A stretch of DNA of 26,695 bases from a virus, in IMG/VR virus record IMGVR_UViG_3300035698_006418, positions 1 through 26,695 of that record; one strand, given 5' to 3'. Positions 11,585-23,154 of this stretch are shown one piece after another. The notes beneath the pieces are model-generated. The model worked only from the letters and a program-made list of their open reading frames with translations. It ran no database searches and was not told the DNA's origin. The first letter of the stretch is position 1. Each line of letters begins with the position of its first letter. The position numbers were made by a program, and so were the translations under genes.

Positions 11585-12752
11585 GAAGAAAAAAGTAGAA
11601 GAGATGGGAGTTGGCGGCCTAGCAGGAATGCAAGTACCAATTGGCATCAAGAAAAGAAAGAAGAAGGTTGACGAACTACTTGAGCTCAATGAGAGTGTAT
11701 CTGTAGCAGAAGCTATTGGATACTTCAGTGGTTTAGATGAGAAAGCTTCTCTTGAAGTCGAAGGAATGCTTGATGAAAGTGATTATGTCAAGCTATCAGA
11801 GATGATAAAGAATGGTTTCGCAGAGGCTGCAATCAGAGAGAAGATTAGGAAGAGAGTAAAAGAAGTTGTCAGGAGGCAACCTGATGGTCAGTATGCTCTC
11901 TACACTCCAAATCCAGATAAGGCTCATGGTTCATCGCAAGTTGGAACGTTCCCTACTAAACTAGCTGCCAGAAGAGCAGAACTTAGTAGATTCCCACCAA
12001 AGGAACCACAGAAGCTTGCTAGGCTTAGAAAAGATGTAGACAAACTACGCAAGAACCCAGAGCTCGCTTCAAAGGAAACTCCTGGCTGGATGGGTGATAA
12101 GAAGAAGAAGAAGAAAGCTCCAAAGCCAAAAAAGACAAAGAAGGAATCACTCGAGAACCTTATTACCAATCTATCAGAGAGCCTGTTCCGCGAAGAAAAA
12201 AAGGGTAGTGGCTGGGACGAGTACGTCTCGAAGTTGTCTAAGCAAGCAGTCCTTGCCGACAAAACGTTCCAGTCTCACCAGAAAGCTATTGCTAAGAGAT
12301 CAGAGAAAGCTCTGAAGTCAGCTGTTAAGTCTGTATCATCTGCTCTGTCTGGTGCAGGATTTGAAGTAAAGGATGGTGGGGTTAAGAAAGACCCTAACAA
12401 GGAAAGAGTGTACGCAGAGCTTTCCGCGTCTGACCAAGAGGGAACATCTGACGTCGGGCCAATCTACATCTTTATAGAGAATGGATATCCTAACATAGAG
12501 ATATCTGATACTGCAAAGAATGGTCTTACCAAAATGGATCCAGCTAGAGGTAAAGTTCTAAGAGCAGAGTTAATAACTGTACAGGATGAAGTTCTTGACA
12601 AAGACGAAACAGCATCAGGTGCGATTAAGAAAAGAGATGAATACCTCAACAAGATAGAAAAGAAGGTAGATGACTTCGTATCAGACATGTCTTCATTAGA
12701 AATAACGATGCTCAAGAGAACACTGAGCAGCAAGTTCAGGAAAATCAAATAA
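11577..12752 (+). CDS. Lysine-rich conserved head-cluster protein
   Basis: A 391-residue protein without a known domain. The N-terminus is basic (GKKKKVEE, KKRKKKVDE). Residues about 95-165 hold a compact conserved-looking stretch with YALYTPNPDKAHGS and VGTFPTKLAARRAELSRFPP, and a polylysine run follows at about 173-190 (KKKKKKAPKPKK). The last 200 residues are an alpha/beta region. The basic runs suggest contact with DNA or the acidic scaffold inside the prohead. It sits between portal and protease and its stop overlaps the protease start (TAATG). The ATG at 11577 follows GGGGGAAGG. Confidence 0.7.
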   Translation: MGKKKKVEEMGVGGLAGMQVPIGIKKRKKKVDELLELNESVSVAEAIGYFSGLDEKASLEVEGMLDESDYVKLSEMIKNGFAEAAIREKIRKRVKEVVRRQPDGQYALYTPNPDKAHGSSQVGTFPTKLAARRAELSRFPPKEPQKLARLRKDVDKLRKNPELASKETPGWMGDKKKKKKAPKPKKTKKESLENLITNLSESLFREEKKGSGWDEYVSKLSKQAVLADKTFQSHQKAIAKRSEKALKSAVKSVSSALSGAGFEVKDGGVKKDPNKERVYAELSASDQEGTSDVGPIYIFIENGYPNIEISDTAKNGLTKMDPARGKVLRAELITVQDEVLDKDETASGAIKKRDEYLNKIEKKVDDFVSDMSSLEITMLKRTLSSKFRKIK

Positions 12753-13336
12753 TGAAACTATTAAGAGAGTGGATAGCTTTAGACTATACGCCTGCTATGA
12801 TTACAGAGTCGCGTGCGAAGAACGATGGAAAGATCATGCTTCCATGTATCCTTCAGAAGGCTCACCTCAAAAACCAGAACGGTAGAATCTACCCGAAGGA
12901 AGTTCTTATACGAGAAGTTGAGAACTACAAGAAGGTAGTCGCAGAAACTAGAGCTCTTGGAGAACTTGACCATCCTGAGACTTCCACTGTTGCTTTAGAT
13001 AGAGCATCACATATAATCAGAGAAATCTTCTGGGAAGGTGACACAGTTCGAGGCATCGTAGAAGTTCTATCGACACCGAAGGGCCAGATATTAGCTACGC
13101 TCCTAGAGTCTGGAGTAAGGATTGGTATGTCATCTAGAGGTATCGGAAGCACAGAGGCCACGAATGAGGGCACAGATATCGTACAGGATGATTATGGCTT
13201 AATTTGTTTTGATGCAGTGTCTGAACCATCAACTCCTGGTGCTTTCATAAATGAGAACATTGAAATAAGTGGAAAGGTTTACACGAAGTCAGATAGAATC
13301 TGGCGTGCGTTAAACGATGTAACAAGAGGTAAGTAG
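12752..13336 (+). CDS. 21: Prohead maturation protease
   Basis: A 194-residue T4 gp21-type serine protease (peptidase family U9/U35-like, herpes-assemblin fold) that degrades the scaffold and trims the capsid protein inside the prohead. The catalytic His is in LGELDHPETS (about residue 73) and the Ser in GMSSRGIGS (about 129), with the supporting FDAVSEPSTPGAFI strand after it. T4 gp21 has 212 residues. It starts within the stop of the upstream gene. A matching L-x-E cleavage site is visible in the major capsid protein. Just past its stop, the +1 frame stays open for 26 codons (see the separate entry). Confidence 0.93.
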   Translation: MKLLREWIALDYTPAMITESRAKNDGKIMLPCILQKAHLKNQNGRIYPKEVLIREVENYKKVVAETRALGELDHPETSTVALDRASHIIREIFWEGDTVRGIVEVLSTPKGQILATLLESGVRIGMSSRGIGSTEATNEGTDIVQDDYGLICFDAVSEPSTPGAFINENIEISGKVYTKSDRIWRALNDVTRGK

Positions 13337-19254: not shown

Positions 19255-20448
19255 ATGACAGCATTTGTAACAGGTTCAACACCATTCGGAATATTCGACT
19301 CAGATGAGTGCTTCCAGGGTGATGCTAGCAAGATTGAAGATTGGGTCCGCCGCAAATTAGGTGGGTCACAGTTATGCGTAGAGCTGTCTTCATCAGACAT
19401 ATTCTCTTCTTTTGAAGAAGCTGCTATTGAATACAGCGCCTACATCAACCAATACCAATTCAAGTCTGTAGCAGCAGACATCCTTGGGTCAGCAACAGGT
19501 TCTCTGAGCGCATCACAGGCCGGTGGCGGACAGGAAAACCGCTATCCCCAGAGTCTATTGGAGTTCCAGAAAAGGCAATCAGAGCCATATGGAGAGATCG
19601 CTGGTGTCGGTGGTGCTTATACTCTCCACTCAGCTTCCTTCACCACAACAATTGGCATTGCAGAATATGATGTCCAAGATATTATCAGTGCACAATTAAC
19701 TGGAGCAGATGGCAGAGTCAAGAGAGCACAGATTAAAGAGATCTTTCACTTCAGTCCACTCAGTCAATACAGGTTCTTTGGAACTACATCTGCTGTAAAC
19801 TATCTCAACAACCAGTTTTCATTCGAGTCATTCACTCCAGAGACAGTATTCTACATGCTTCCAGTATGGGAAGATATCTTGAGAGGTATGCAGTTCGAAA
19901 CGTCCAACAGAGTAAGAAGAAGTCAATACAGTTATGATAACAACAACAACGTAATCAAGTTGTATCCACCACCGTCATCTGGTGGTACTAGAGTTCACTT
20001 CACATACTGGCTTCCAAAAGGCCCATACGCTCCAGACTATGATGATGCAGCTCTCGATGGAGTAGCGAATGTTTCGAATGCTCCATTCAGCAATATTAGA
20101 TACTGTAAGCTGAACTCAATTGCTAGGCAGTGGATATGGAAGATGTCATTCGCTTTATCAAAAGAGATACTTGGAGAGATGAGATCCAAGATGTCAACGA
20201 TCCCAATTCCAGGTGGTGATCTTACTCTCAACGGACCAGAGTTAATATCTGATGCGAGGGTAGAAGCAGACCGTCTGCGTAACGAGTTGAAAGAATACTT
20301 GGATGATACTACTTATCAAGCGATTGCGCAGAAAGAAGCTGACAAAGCAGATGCAATCAAGAAGACAATGGCAGAAGTTCCACTAGGAATTTATGTCGGC
20401 TCATTTTTGGCGATATTTCTACCGATTTCATATCTATTACATGGTTAA
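19255..20448 (+). CDS. 13: Neck protein, T4 gp13-like
   Basis: A 397-residue protein resembling the larger neck or head-completion protein of marine T4-like phages: N-terminal [26 protein letters not shown], a helix with [19 protein letters not shown], the central [29 protein letters not shown], and C-terminal [29 protein letters not shown]. Neck proteins close the portal after packaging and dock the tail. The family-like part seems to end near PLGIYVG. The last 15 or so residues ([15 protein letters not shown]) are hydrophobic and overlap the inserted mobile gene, so the natural C-terminus may have been altered. Start: ATG 19255 after AGAGGA. Assignment to gp13 rather than another neck protein is moderate. 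Confidence 0.65.
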
Positions 20449-20893
20449 ATGTATGGAGTGTGGCAAAGAATATAAAGCAATCGTCAGACGACACCTTAAG
20501 TCTCATGACATGACGTTTGAAGAGTACAAAGATAAATGGCCAAAAGCTCAAACTTGGACTCCTAAGTCTGCAGAGATGAGAAAGAAGATTTCCCAAGGTA
20601 CAAAAAAAGGTATGCATAAACCAGAATCTTGGTCAAAGTTCAAGACTCATATTAGTACTAGAGATATTTCTGGTGAGAACAATCCATTTTATGGCAAAGA
20701 GCATACTGACAAAACGAAAAAACTTATATCTGAAAATGAAGTCCGTTCGAAGAAAATATCTGAAAAGAAGGAAGAGTGGTGGTCAACAAGAAAAGGACAG
20801 ACTGTAGAACAACTCTTTGGTGAAGAGACTGGAAAGAGGATAAGAAAGATAAAGTCTGAACAGGCGACAAGTATTGCGAAGAAAACGGAATGA
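20441..20893 (+). CDS. NUMOD3-type mobile protein with N-terminal zinc finger (free-standing homing-endonuclease relative)
   Basis: A protein of about 150 residues. It begins [21 protein letters not shown], a C-x2-C...H-x3-H finger of Ros/MucR type, continues [11 protein letters not shown], and carries a NUMOD3 DNA-binding motif ([21 protein letters not shown]) and a further lysine-rich helix. These are accessory domains of phage homing endonucleases; no GIY-YIG or HNH catalytic motif is visible, so it may be a remnant or a recombined fragment. It overlaps the 3' end of the gp13-like gene and separates it from the gp14-like gene, which are normally adjacent. ATG 20441 is chosen since the finger begins there; an in-frame ATG at 20393 would add 16 residues. 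Confidence 0.6.
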
Positions 20894-20994
20894 CATTCAA
20901 AATCCTTACAGAAGATGACTTCCCAATCATCAAGATGGTGATAGCCAAAGATGACCCTGATATAATCTGGGCAAAAGGTGTGAGGTTCAAATAG
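20890..20994 (+). CDS. Candidate 34-residue peptide between the mobile gene and gp14
   Basis: Starts at an ATG overlapping the stop of the mobile gene (ATGA) and stops at TAG sharing its last base with the GTG start of the next gene. It reads [20 protein letters not shown] and then [24 protein letters not shown] resembles the start of the C-terminal helix-turn-helix of phage HNH/NUMOD proteins, so it may be the frameshifted tail of the mobile gene. It may instead be a small coupled gene. Real translation is plausible from the tight overlaps on both sides. Confidence 0.4.
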
Positions 20995-21497
20995 TGGCTC
21001 GCAAATTCATAACCGATAAAGAGTTCGCCTTCATTGAAAAGATTAACAAGGAGCTCATCCAAGAGTTTGTAGGGCAAGAGGTAATCTACTACGCCATCTC
21101 TATGGAGCATACGGTGTCTAATGACTTGTATAATGAATCTATAGATAAAGTATGGTTCAGCCCAGTCAGGATTAATGCTAGAGTAGAATGGGAAAACCCA
21201 GGAGTCTCATCTACAAGCTTTACATTAGATTCGAAGTACGATTTGATTGTAGACTTCCACATACAAGAGTTAGAAGAAAGGAATGTGAAACCAATAGAGG
21301 GCGATTTTATAGAGTTCGGACAAGTAGTATTTGAGATAACATCAGTTACAACTCCAGAGCTAGTCTACGGACAACCAAACAACAAAATAATGACGAGGTG
21401 TGTATGTGTACCTTCAAGAGAGGGTCAGATGCAAGTCCACTCGGATTCATCAGAATTTATTGATAACACACATCCTGTTGAAAATGAGGAGTGTTAA
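20994..21497 (+). CDS. 14: Neck protein, T4 gp14-like
   Basis: A 167-residue protein with segments I associate with the gp14 neck family: FIEKINKELIQEFVGQEVIYYAIS, DLYNESIDKVWFSPVRINARVEW, LIVDFHIQELEERNVKPIEGDFIEFGQVVFEITSVTTPELVYGQ and CVCVPSREGQ. It should form a ring with gp13 below the portal. It is shorter than T4 gp14 (256). The start is GTG overlapping the upstream TAG (TAGTG). Its stop overlaps the protease start (TAATG). Only part of the family pattern is remembered, so the assignment is moderate. Confidence 0.65.
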   Translation: MARKFITDKEFAFIEKINKELIQEFVGQEVIYYAISMEHTVSNDLYNESIDKVWFSPVRINARVEWENPGVSSTSFTLDSKYDLIVDFHIQELEERNVKPIEGDFIEFGQVVFEITSVTTPELVYGQPNNKIMTRCVCVPSREGQMQVHSDSSEFIDNTHPVENEEC

Positions 21498-22294
21498 TGA
21501 TTAAATTTATAATAGCAGTAGTGGTCGCGATTTTTCTCTTTACTTCGGTATCTTTTGTACCAACTACAAGAGGTGATACAGAGATTAGCCTTAGCAGAGG
21601 TGGCTTGTATGTCGAAGATATTGAAGAAGACTTTGCCTTATTAATGGAGCATGCAGTAAAGATCGAAAAAGAGATTGACACTGTAGATGTATTGGGTACT
21701 ACAACATCAACAGTAATAACGACTGGCTCTGGCTCTGTGATAGGACTAGAAGGCAATCATTCCCTTGTCCTTACTGTTCATCACGTATGCGAAAATATGG
21801 GGCTCAAGGGTAAGATACTTCTTGGTGAACTCATTACGGCAGAGAAAGACTTCGTAATTAGTAAGTCTGGTAGTAGGTTAAGGGTAACTGAGATCTTCTT
21901 TGAAGACAAGAGTAATGACATATGTGTAATAGGTGTGAAAGGTGTGGCAGGACTTCCAGCGTCACCAGCAGCATTCCTGCCAGAGCCAGGTGACGTTGTT
22001 TACTCGGTAGGTGCACCAAGCGGAATTTGGGACAAGGATGTCGTCCACCTAATTGACGGATACTTCATAGGCATAAAGTCAGAACCAATCAATGATATGT
22101 TCCACGGCTTCGCTCAGTACTCAATGCACAGCTCTGCTGGTGCAAGCGGATCGGCAATCTTCCACAAGGGTAGAATAATAGGTCTAATATCGCATGGAAG
22201 TCGCACATACTCTGGAGTTATGTGGGGACCTTCACTTGGTATTGTTCGCCATGCCGTAGAGACGGGTCTTAATAGATGGAGAGATAGCTTATAA
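21497..22294 (+). CDS. Trypsin-like serine protease with N-terminal signal or anchor
   Basis: A 265-residue protein. MIKFIIAVVVAIFLFTSVSFV is a signal peptide or membrane anchor. The rest shows a chymotrypsin/HtrA-like (Trypsin_2) fold: SLVLTVHHVC with the catalytic His (95 or 96), NDICVIGV with Asp141, and SSAGASGSAIF with Ser217 in GASGS, followed by GRIIGLISHG. All three residues are in the right order and spacing. Such a protein should act in the periplasm or at the membrane, and could process virion or host envelope proteins; the substrate is unknown. It lies between neck genes, and starts in the gp14 stop. ATG 21497 has GAGGAG five bases upstream, so the in-frame GTG at 21491 is not preferred. 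Confidence 0.75.
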   Translation: MIKFIIAVVVAIFLFTSVSFVPTTRGDTEISLSRGGLYVEDIEEDFALLMEHAVKIEKEIDTVDVLGTTTSTVITTGSGSVIGLEGNHSLVLTVHHVCENMGLKGKILLGELITAEKDFVISKSGSRLRVTEIFFEDKSNDICVIGVKGVAGLPASPAAFLPEPGDVVYSVGAPSGIWDKDVVHLIDGYFIGIKSEPINDMFHGFAQYSMHSSAGASGSAIFHKGRIIGLISHGSRTYSGVMWGPSLGIVRHAVETGLNRWRDSL

Positions 22295-23154
22295 TGTCCA
22301 GTGAAGAGCATGCAGAATACCAGAATATTGACATTGAGACAGTTGACCAAGCTGTAAAAGATTGGTTCAATCTAACTGTTGACTCTCATGTCAAGACTCC
22401 GACTGAAGAGTTGGCTAAAGTTCCTGTGCTCTTCGCATCTGGAGAACGGTGGGCAACCGCCAGAGACCAGAGAGGTATTAGAGATAAGAATGGTTTACTG
22501 ATACTACCTCTCATATCCATTAGAAGAACCAACATAGACAGAGACAGAACTCAAATCGCATTAGGCACTGAGACCAAGACTTTGACTGTGAGTAGGGAAA
22601 TCGCTCAAAAGACAAACCTAATTCAGAATGCAATCGAAGCTCGTAACCCCGCAAGGAAAGCTGCCAGTAACAAGATTGTGCATGAGATTACAACTATTCC
22701 TTTCCCTGACTGGTTCAACACTGGATACGAAATCATAATCCAAACGCAGTACACCTCTCAGATGAACAAGATACTTGAGAAGATATTTGATTCGCTGGCC
22801 CTGCAGAACTCATTTGTTATGCCTGTTGGGATGAGTAAGTTCGAAAGTGATTCCACAGATAAAGAGTTCGAAGACAGGAAGCTCCTAAACGATTACTACT
22901 TTGTTGGTTTCATGGACACTGATATGAACGACACGGGTAACTTCGAAGAATTCACAGACCAAGAGAGAATAATAAGATACTCTTACAACATTACAGTACC
23001 AACGTATCTACAACTAGATCCAGAGGGAACACGACCATCGCTACAGGTAAAGCACTCATCTTATAAGTTTGCTTTTAGGGATGAATGTGTTACTTTTGTA
23101 GATGATCCGCTCATCTTGGATGATATATTTTCCACCAATAAGCCAAAGCGGTAA
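22294..23154 (+). CDS. 15: Tail sheath stabiliser/terminator, T4 gp15-like
   Basis: A 286-residue protein in the position and size range of T4 gp15 (272), which caps the tail and joins it to the neck. Visible features are VPVLFASGERWATARDQRGIRDKNGLLILPLISIRR near residues 42-80 and FPDWFNTGYEIIIQTQYTSQMNKILEKIF near 145-175, the latter similar to tail-terminator proteins that monitor tail completion. No enzyme motif is seen. It begins on the last base of the protease stop codon. An AT-rich 119-base gap with a promoter-like motif follows. Confidence 0.65.
   Translation: MSSEEHAEYQNIDIETVDQAVKDWFNLTVDSHVKTPTEELAKVPVLFASGERWATARDQRGIRDKNGLLILPLISIRRTNIDRDRTQIALGTETKTLTVSREIAQKTNLIQNAIEARNPARKAASNKIVHEITTIPFPDWFNTGYEIIIQTQYTSQMNKILEKIFDSLALQNSFVMPVGMSKFESDSTDKEFEDRKLLNDYYFVGFMDTDMNDTGNFEEFTDQERIIRYSYNITVPTYLQLDPEGTRPSLQVKHSSYKFAFRDECVTFVDDPLILDDIFSTNKPKR

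Follow-up and report, generated by a model that had tools for sequence, protein, structure and literature searches.

A predicted exported, HtrA-type serine protease encoded between neck genes of a T4-like virus

Holins, endolysins, spanins, and small blocking lipoproteins make up most of the phage proteins known to act in the envelope when infection ends. The protein described here is best compared with the HtrA/Deg proteases (DegP, DegQ, DegS, and HtrA1), which it resembles in protease-domain fold, in triad order, in its GxSG motif, and probably in its envelope location, whereas its family differs from them in being phage encoded, in having no PDZ domain that we could find, in carrying cysteine pairs near the triad, and in consisting mostly of predicted lipoproteins. 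Among phages, the Sulfitobacter phage pCB2047-A carries a Trypsin_2 protease in a lysis cassette that otherwise comprises an endolysin, a holin, a hypothetical membrane protein, and XhlA. That protease has an apparent cleavable signal peptide and no lipobox by eye, and near-identical copies, likewise overlapping a gene named hemolysin, are found in pCB2047-C and NYA-2014a. It is phage borne and combines an apparent signal peptide with a Trypsin_2 domain, as in our family, but its gene neighbors are endolysin, holin, and XhlA and its carrier is a 41-kb, integrase-encoding phage, whereas the gene studied here lies outside any lysis cassette recognizable in the window. A profile of our family matches the pCB2047-A protease with an E value of 5e-19 when this single target is searched, and the BLAST link between the two is not significant (E 9). 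By analogy, we regard this weakly related protease as a lead towards a role in lysis.

Other phage lipoproteins offer further points of comparison. T5 Llp is a periplasmic lipoprotein that blocks FhuA (PMC9586334), though without cleaving it, and Llp and Cor are, comparably to our family, phage lipoproteins of the periplasm with a disulfide (PMC9586334). These are small binders, however, and our protein differs from them in size, in fold, and in its missing lipobox; Llp may nevertheless serve, again by analogy, as a lead towards superinfection exclusion. The o-spanins (lambda Rz1, T4 PseT.2) are envelope phage lipoproteins with a late function (PMC6139136), which is what we propose for our family, but they are short, nonenzymatic, and encoded with an i-spanin, whereas our protein has 265 amino acids and a predicted globular protease fold without a lipobox. 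The T4 prohead protease gp21 is also a phage protease encoded in a T4-like structural region, but it belongs to an unrelated family and has a separate gene. Searches of the open-licence PMC literature turned up no report of a trypsin-like lipoprotein protease carried by phages; PMC10783043 notes that one cluster of alphaproteobacterial phages has a trypsin-like serine protease. The family is uncharacterized and represents an HtrA-like domain carried by phages in a predicted exported, mostly lipoprotein form.

The window, by which we mean the whole stretch of DNA analyzed, is a 26,695-base virus record of T4-like make-up, in which PHROG matches support a terminase, a portal, a gp21-type head protease, a major capsid protein, a gp13-like adaptor, and a tail sheath. 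The protease gene is present where it was originally predicted, running from ATG to TAA over 265 codons with a ribosome-binding-like GAGGAG ahead of it. The features of the region are as follows.

20994..21497, + strand: neck gene preceding the protease gene, termed gp14-like from gene order; its stop overlaps the protease start (TAATG); no PHROG match
21486..21491, + strand: GAGGAG, Shine-Dalgarno-like sequence for the protease gene, located within the terminal part of the gp14-like gene before it, as read in the sequence
21497..22294, + strand: gene for a predicted exported trypsin-like serine protease (HtrA-like, no PDZ domain found), from the ORF, Trypsin_2, the AF2 model, fold matches, and the family alignment
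21500..21541, + strand: hydrophobic N-terminal segment (residues 2 to 15), putative export signal or membrane anchor, from the model helix 2 to 15, hydropathy, and a lipobox scan
21782..21784, + strand: codon of the predicted catalytic His96, invariant in 15/15 aligned members
21788..21790, + strand: codon of Cys98, half of a putative disulfide beside His96, from its co-occurrence with Cys143 in the family alignment
21917..21919, + strand: codon of the predicted catalytic Asp141, invariant in 15/15 and aligned with the DLAVL aspartate of DegQ
21923..21925, + strand: codon of Cys143, the other half of the putative disulfide, from the family alignment
22145..22147, + strand: codon of the predicted catalytic Ser217 (GASGS), invariant in 15/15
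22294..23154, + strand: neck gene following the protease gene, termed gp15-like from gene order; its start overlaps the protease stop (TAATG); no PHROG match

The placement between neck genes can be kept with one reservation: the gp13-like neighbor and the tail sheath are backed by PHROGs, but gp14 and gp15 are designations taken from gene order alone. The gp15-like protein weakly resembles proteins of Flavobacterium and Microcystis phages, and a search of its profile against solved structures gave no relevant match. Upstream, a ROS/MUCR and NUMOD3 homing-type gene (20393-20893, + strand) overlaps the end of the gp13-like gene and precedes the gp14-like gene; in locus L002, a longer gene of similar sequence is found in the same place (4161-5000).

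Our data agree with the assignment of the product to the trypsin-like proteases. The protein matches Trypsin_2 (PF13365) with 48.3 bits against a curated Pfam cutoff of 27.6 (E 2.3e-12), with residues 77 to 230 spanning the whole profile, and the cutoff is also passed by 8 of the 10 relatives scanned, L020 falling below it (23.1) and L095 giving no match. An AF2 model built from nine family members (mean pLDDT 80, pTM 0.76, residues 17 to 41 below 50) contains the double beta-barrel of Trypsin_2, one of the two features on which the original prediction had staked the assignment. The best solved structures found for the model by Foldseek are DegS, HtrA1, DegQ, and DegP, at E values of about 1e-11, and with VIA-align 2 the model superimposes on DegP (8f0a_A) with a Z of 23.7 over 194 residues at 2.8 A, HtrA1 and DegQ being tied with it. 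Although sequence identity to the HtrA/Deg structures listed is just 14 to 22%, a profile of 15 members matches solved DegQ (E 1.3e-12), with the family His, Asp, and Ser aligned with the DegQ catalytic motifs.

The triad had been read as His95 or His96, Asp141, and Ser217. It is complete and follows the trypsin order His-Asp-Ser, and His96, Asp141, and Ser217 are the same in all 15 rows of the family alignment, A3; since residue 95 varies among relatives while residue 96 is invariant, the catalytic histidine is His96 and not His95. Judged by these residues, the protein is probably catalytically active. Because the Trypsin_2 match is strong (E 2.3e-12) and relatives diverged to 14 to 33% identity keep all three residues, the frame is no chance ORF. 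A Pfam search to an E value of 10 returned Trypsin_2 alone, with no PDZ domain, and the protein ends at residue 265, directly after the C-terminal helix of the modeled protease domain (247 to 264). On the strength of the model, we conclude that the window encodes an HtrA/DegP-type double-barrel serine protease domain without a PDZ domain that we could find.

Two other identities were considered. The first, the T4 gp21 head-maturation protease, was rejected: the window protein has no PHROG match, head maturation proteases included, and the gp21-type protease is a different gene (12752-13336, phrog_207, E 1.4e-49). The second was LmuA, the Lamassu defense effector whose gene stands beside LmuB, for which PADLOC gave a partial match (E 2e-9, residues 57 to 225 against positions 15 to 160 of a 425-position profile); the matched stretch is the protease domain, and we read the match as probably reflecting that common domain.

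Counted by contig, 25 IMG/VR contigs carry the protease gene, the window being one of them, and several are near-identical. Alignment A3 holds 15 rows chosen from this family, in which relatives are 14 to 33% identical to the window protein; no family member has diverged further than L022. Relatives were obtained by fetching loci via neighboring genes and then by alignment-based scans; a scan of viral contigs with the window protein alone yielded no relative, and a tblastn search of 50,697 phage records, using the window protein plus three relatives as queries, yielded none at an E value of 0.01. A scan of genome contigs by one short peptide pattern (alignment A4), which says little on absence from cells, gave a single match of 26 residues in a Flavobacteriales genome (L122), which we treated as chance because its ORFs were unmatched by family or marker profiles at E values up to 1. 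A plasmid search with the L014 relative found nine Sinorhizobium replicons, each over 34% of the query (E 3e-4 to 8e-4), and a weak family-profile match at the extreme end of contig G007 (E 2.3e-5, 55 profile positions) was excluded from all counts.

The signal peptide that had been proposed is borne out as a hydrophobic, export-type N terminus, with a mean Kyte-Doolittle value of 3.49 over residues 4 to 15, but in the window copy it may be either cleaved or retained as an anchor. Using a PS51257-like rule, with the cysteine at residues 15 to 35, we detected a lipobox in 15 of 18 members versus 16 of 935 background ORFs (plus-strand ORFs of at least 150 amino acids, family members kept in); for L016, L019, and L106, an internal start codon was used instead of the earliest one in the ORF. 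Five lipobox members (L109 to L113) are 86 to 97% identical, so that the independent count is lower than 15. The scan detected no lipobox in the window protein, L002, or L094, all three of which keep a strongly hydrophobic N terminus, and membrane anchoring of the window copy is uncertain for this reason. By these sequence criteria, the N termini of the family are export signals, and most relatives are predicted lipoproteins.

The cysteines fit this picture. The window protein contains exactly two, Cys98 and Cys143, each placed two positions beyond a catalytic residue (His and Asp, respectively); the alignment shows both of them in 9 of 15 rows and neither in the other 6, of which 5 carry another cysteine pair. 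This paired gain and loss fits alternative putative disulfides in an oxidizing, periplasmic compartment, with few independent events behind the argument because both patterns largely follow clades.

With respect to genomic position, the gp15-like gene lies directly downstream of the protease in 19 of the 25 contigs, the gp14-like gene being out of view in four of these (L101, L103, L104, and L107). Of 11 representatives measured, 10 have a protease stop that overlaps the following start codon, the exception being L022 with a 212-base gap; a twelfth, L006, was left out of this count as its next frame is open far upstream. In the remaining six contigs (L095 and L109 to L113), the protease is found elsewhere, and the placement between neck genes holds for most of the family but not for all of it. 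The neighbors in L095 are DNA-metabolism and packaging genes; in L109 and L110, which have long flanks, and in the shorter L113, the protease is opposite in strand to most neighbors, and on the L110 contig, G010, some 50 kb separate it from gp15-like genes. This presence elsewhere argues that the neck position is not essential and that the protease does not belong to the neck.

In two close relatives, L015 and L021, the two neck genes are adjacent with no protease between them, and none was found elsewhere on these contigs (65 and 185 kb). Eighty loci were fetched by capsid protein, and 8 of the 10 closest carry the protease at the same site; of the remaining 70, both neck markers are visible in 31, none of which has the protease. 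The gp14-gp15 junction looks like an insertion spot, and the protease is a lineage-linked accessory gene rather than part of the neck. At this junction, large genes are inserted between the gp14-like gene and the protease in L007 (2264-4162, + strand) and L016 (7061-8719, + strand), that of L007 with collagen-like repeats.

Among 11 neck-located members, protease distances track those of the gp15-like protein (Mantel r 0.87, p 0.0002), and the protease is less conserved than both neighbors in 55 of 55 pairs, which indicates that the gene is inherited vertically but changes faster, in the manner of a host-facing gene. Within the clade of L109 to L113, purifying selection is strong (dN/dS 0.05 to 0.13 over ten pairs).

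Considering these data, we propose a model in which the gene product is an active serine protease that is exported; it would have an HtrA/DegP catalytic domain, with no PDZ domain found, and its N terminus would hold it at the host membrane, through a lipid anchor in most relatives and through a cleaved or uncleaved signal sequence in the window copy. The protease would be translated together with the late neck genes and hence expressed during virion assembly, and its site of action would be the periplasm or envelope rather than the virion. Its substrates, at a guess, would be host envelope proteins, cut late in infection. Action on the envelope at the end of infection is suggested by the export signals, the triad, the late neighbors, and the independence from the neck taken together. 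Fold, triad, family conservation, gene order, the lipobox in relatives, and purifying selection in one clade were computed directly; from them we infer catalytic activity, the compartment, and the late timing. That the protein is an active, exported envelope protease, accessory and not part of the virion, we consider likely, and to the whole reading of an exported, membrane-tethered accessory protease that cuts host envelope proteins late in infection we assign a probability of roughly 0.6. The earlier interpretation of a secreted or anchored phage protease agrees with the fold, the triad, and the export signal and is extended by the predicted lipoprotein nature of most relatives, but the neck is not required. 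If our reading is true, a conserved, exported HtrA-type protease in T4-like phages would add envelope proteolysis to the known late functions and would bear on how phages without a recognizable spanin disrupt the outer membrane.

As to purpose, our first guess, ahead of superinfection exclusion, is that cleavage eases lysis and progeny release, via outer-membrane or wall-tethering proteins or via receptors that would trap progeny; we advance it tentatively. A more specific version, in which these phage lipoproteins form a protease family that breaches or weakens the outer membrane through proteolysis, replacing spanins or acting beside them, appears unlikely. A crude scan for spanin-candidate lipoproteins found one nested in a larger ORF in G003; two nested ones, a 61-amino-acid protein, and a matrixin-like lipoprotein in G005; and one nested candidate plus the protease in the 98.7-kb relative G006, where the protease is the sole lipoprotein candidate not so nested. 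The same scan gave no candidate in the window, the filter being crude and the contigs incomplete. According to the 2018 spanin survey (PMC6139136), about 13% of the genomes analyzed there have no recognizable spanin, and lipoprotein genes are called rare in phage genomes. If true, the outer-membrane-opening reading would bear on how these phages disrupt the outer membrane, providing an enzymatic exit route for phages without recognizable spanins. The contig of L094 also encodes a lipoprotein with a matrixin (M10) metalloprotease domain (L149, 4104-4736, - strand, E 2.9e-7) that has a relative in L161. Matrixin (PF00413) as a fixed partner of the protease was rejected, being found in G005 only, 1 of 15 contigs.

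The protease might instead serve superinfection exclusion or receptor removal, cleaving a surface receptor from the periplasmic side or blocking DNA passage, so that secondary phages or progeny are left unbound. The lipoprotein form of most members would suit this role, as would the lower conservation of the protease than of its neighbors in all 55 pairs, which is expected of a host-facing gene, and known superinfection lipoproteins of phages act from the periplasm and contain a disulfide, in the description given for them in PMC9586334. However, Llp and Cor are small binding proteins and not enzymes, and cotranslation with neck genes suggests late expression, late for blocking a secondary infection; we consider this purpose doubtful.

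A role in controlling the envelope stress response or a periplasmic defense, with the protein acting as a PDZ-less, DegS- or DegP-like protease on an anti-sigma factor, on misfolded envelope proteins of phage or host, or on a defense protein located in the envelope, seems quite improbable. DegS activity is gated by a peptide signal via its PDZ domain, and a protease without PDZ would be ungated by this usual signal; the closest solved folds, DegS, DegP, DegQ, and HtrA1, also favor such a role. Nevertheless, identity to the listed Deg/HtrA matches is low (14 to 22%), NCBIfam models of DegP, DegS, and DegQ do not match the window protein, and all DegP/DegS matches of its relatives are far below cutoff, the best scoring 29.6 bits against 416.2 (TIGR02037).

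Location between neck genes in 19 of 25 contigs and inheritance with them (Mantel r 0.87) could also indicate a virion-associated neck or tail protease acting in assembly or entry. We think this very improbable: an export signal or lipobox is present, the T4-type head protease gp21 is separately encoded (phrog_207, E 1.4e-49), and the protease is missing between the same genes in L015 and L021 and lies elsewhere in 6 of 25 contigs. Entry as part of the virion is the least likely of the roles considered, because of the export signal and the presence of the gene elsewhere. That the gene is cargo kept by chance with no role in the phage cycle, as its absence from the close relatives L015 and L021 and from all 31 distant loci with both neck markers visible might suggest, is hardly credible: the triad is invariant among proteins 14 to 33% identical to that of the window, purifying selection is strong in one clade, and 8 of the 10 closest capsid relatives have the gene at the same site.

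The T4 late promoter TATAAATA found no support in the window, where 17 matches (one mismatch allowed) compare with 27.65 expected. Shine-Dalgarno-like motifs precede 13 of 24 chosen gene starts in the window versus 88 of 605 other ATGs, and a host using Shine-Dalgarno signals is therefore favored; Bacteroidetes are largely without Shine-Dalgarno use. Elsewhere in the window, a 161-amino-acid protein encoded between terminase and portal (8166-8651, + strand) bears a weak resemblance to ADP-ribosyltransferases (ART-PolyVal E 0.045 and PARP E 0.23, both below cutoff). At 4448-5507 (+ strand), a small hydrophobic protein precedes one that begins with a membrane segment; by eye, the two are possibly holin- and spanin-like, with no Pfam family above cutoff, and a TnsA-like N-terminal endonuclease domain (PF08722, E 1.4e-10) is encoded at 3-356 on the + strand.
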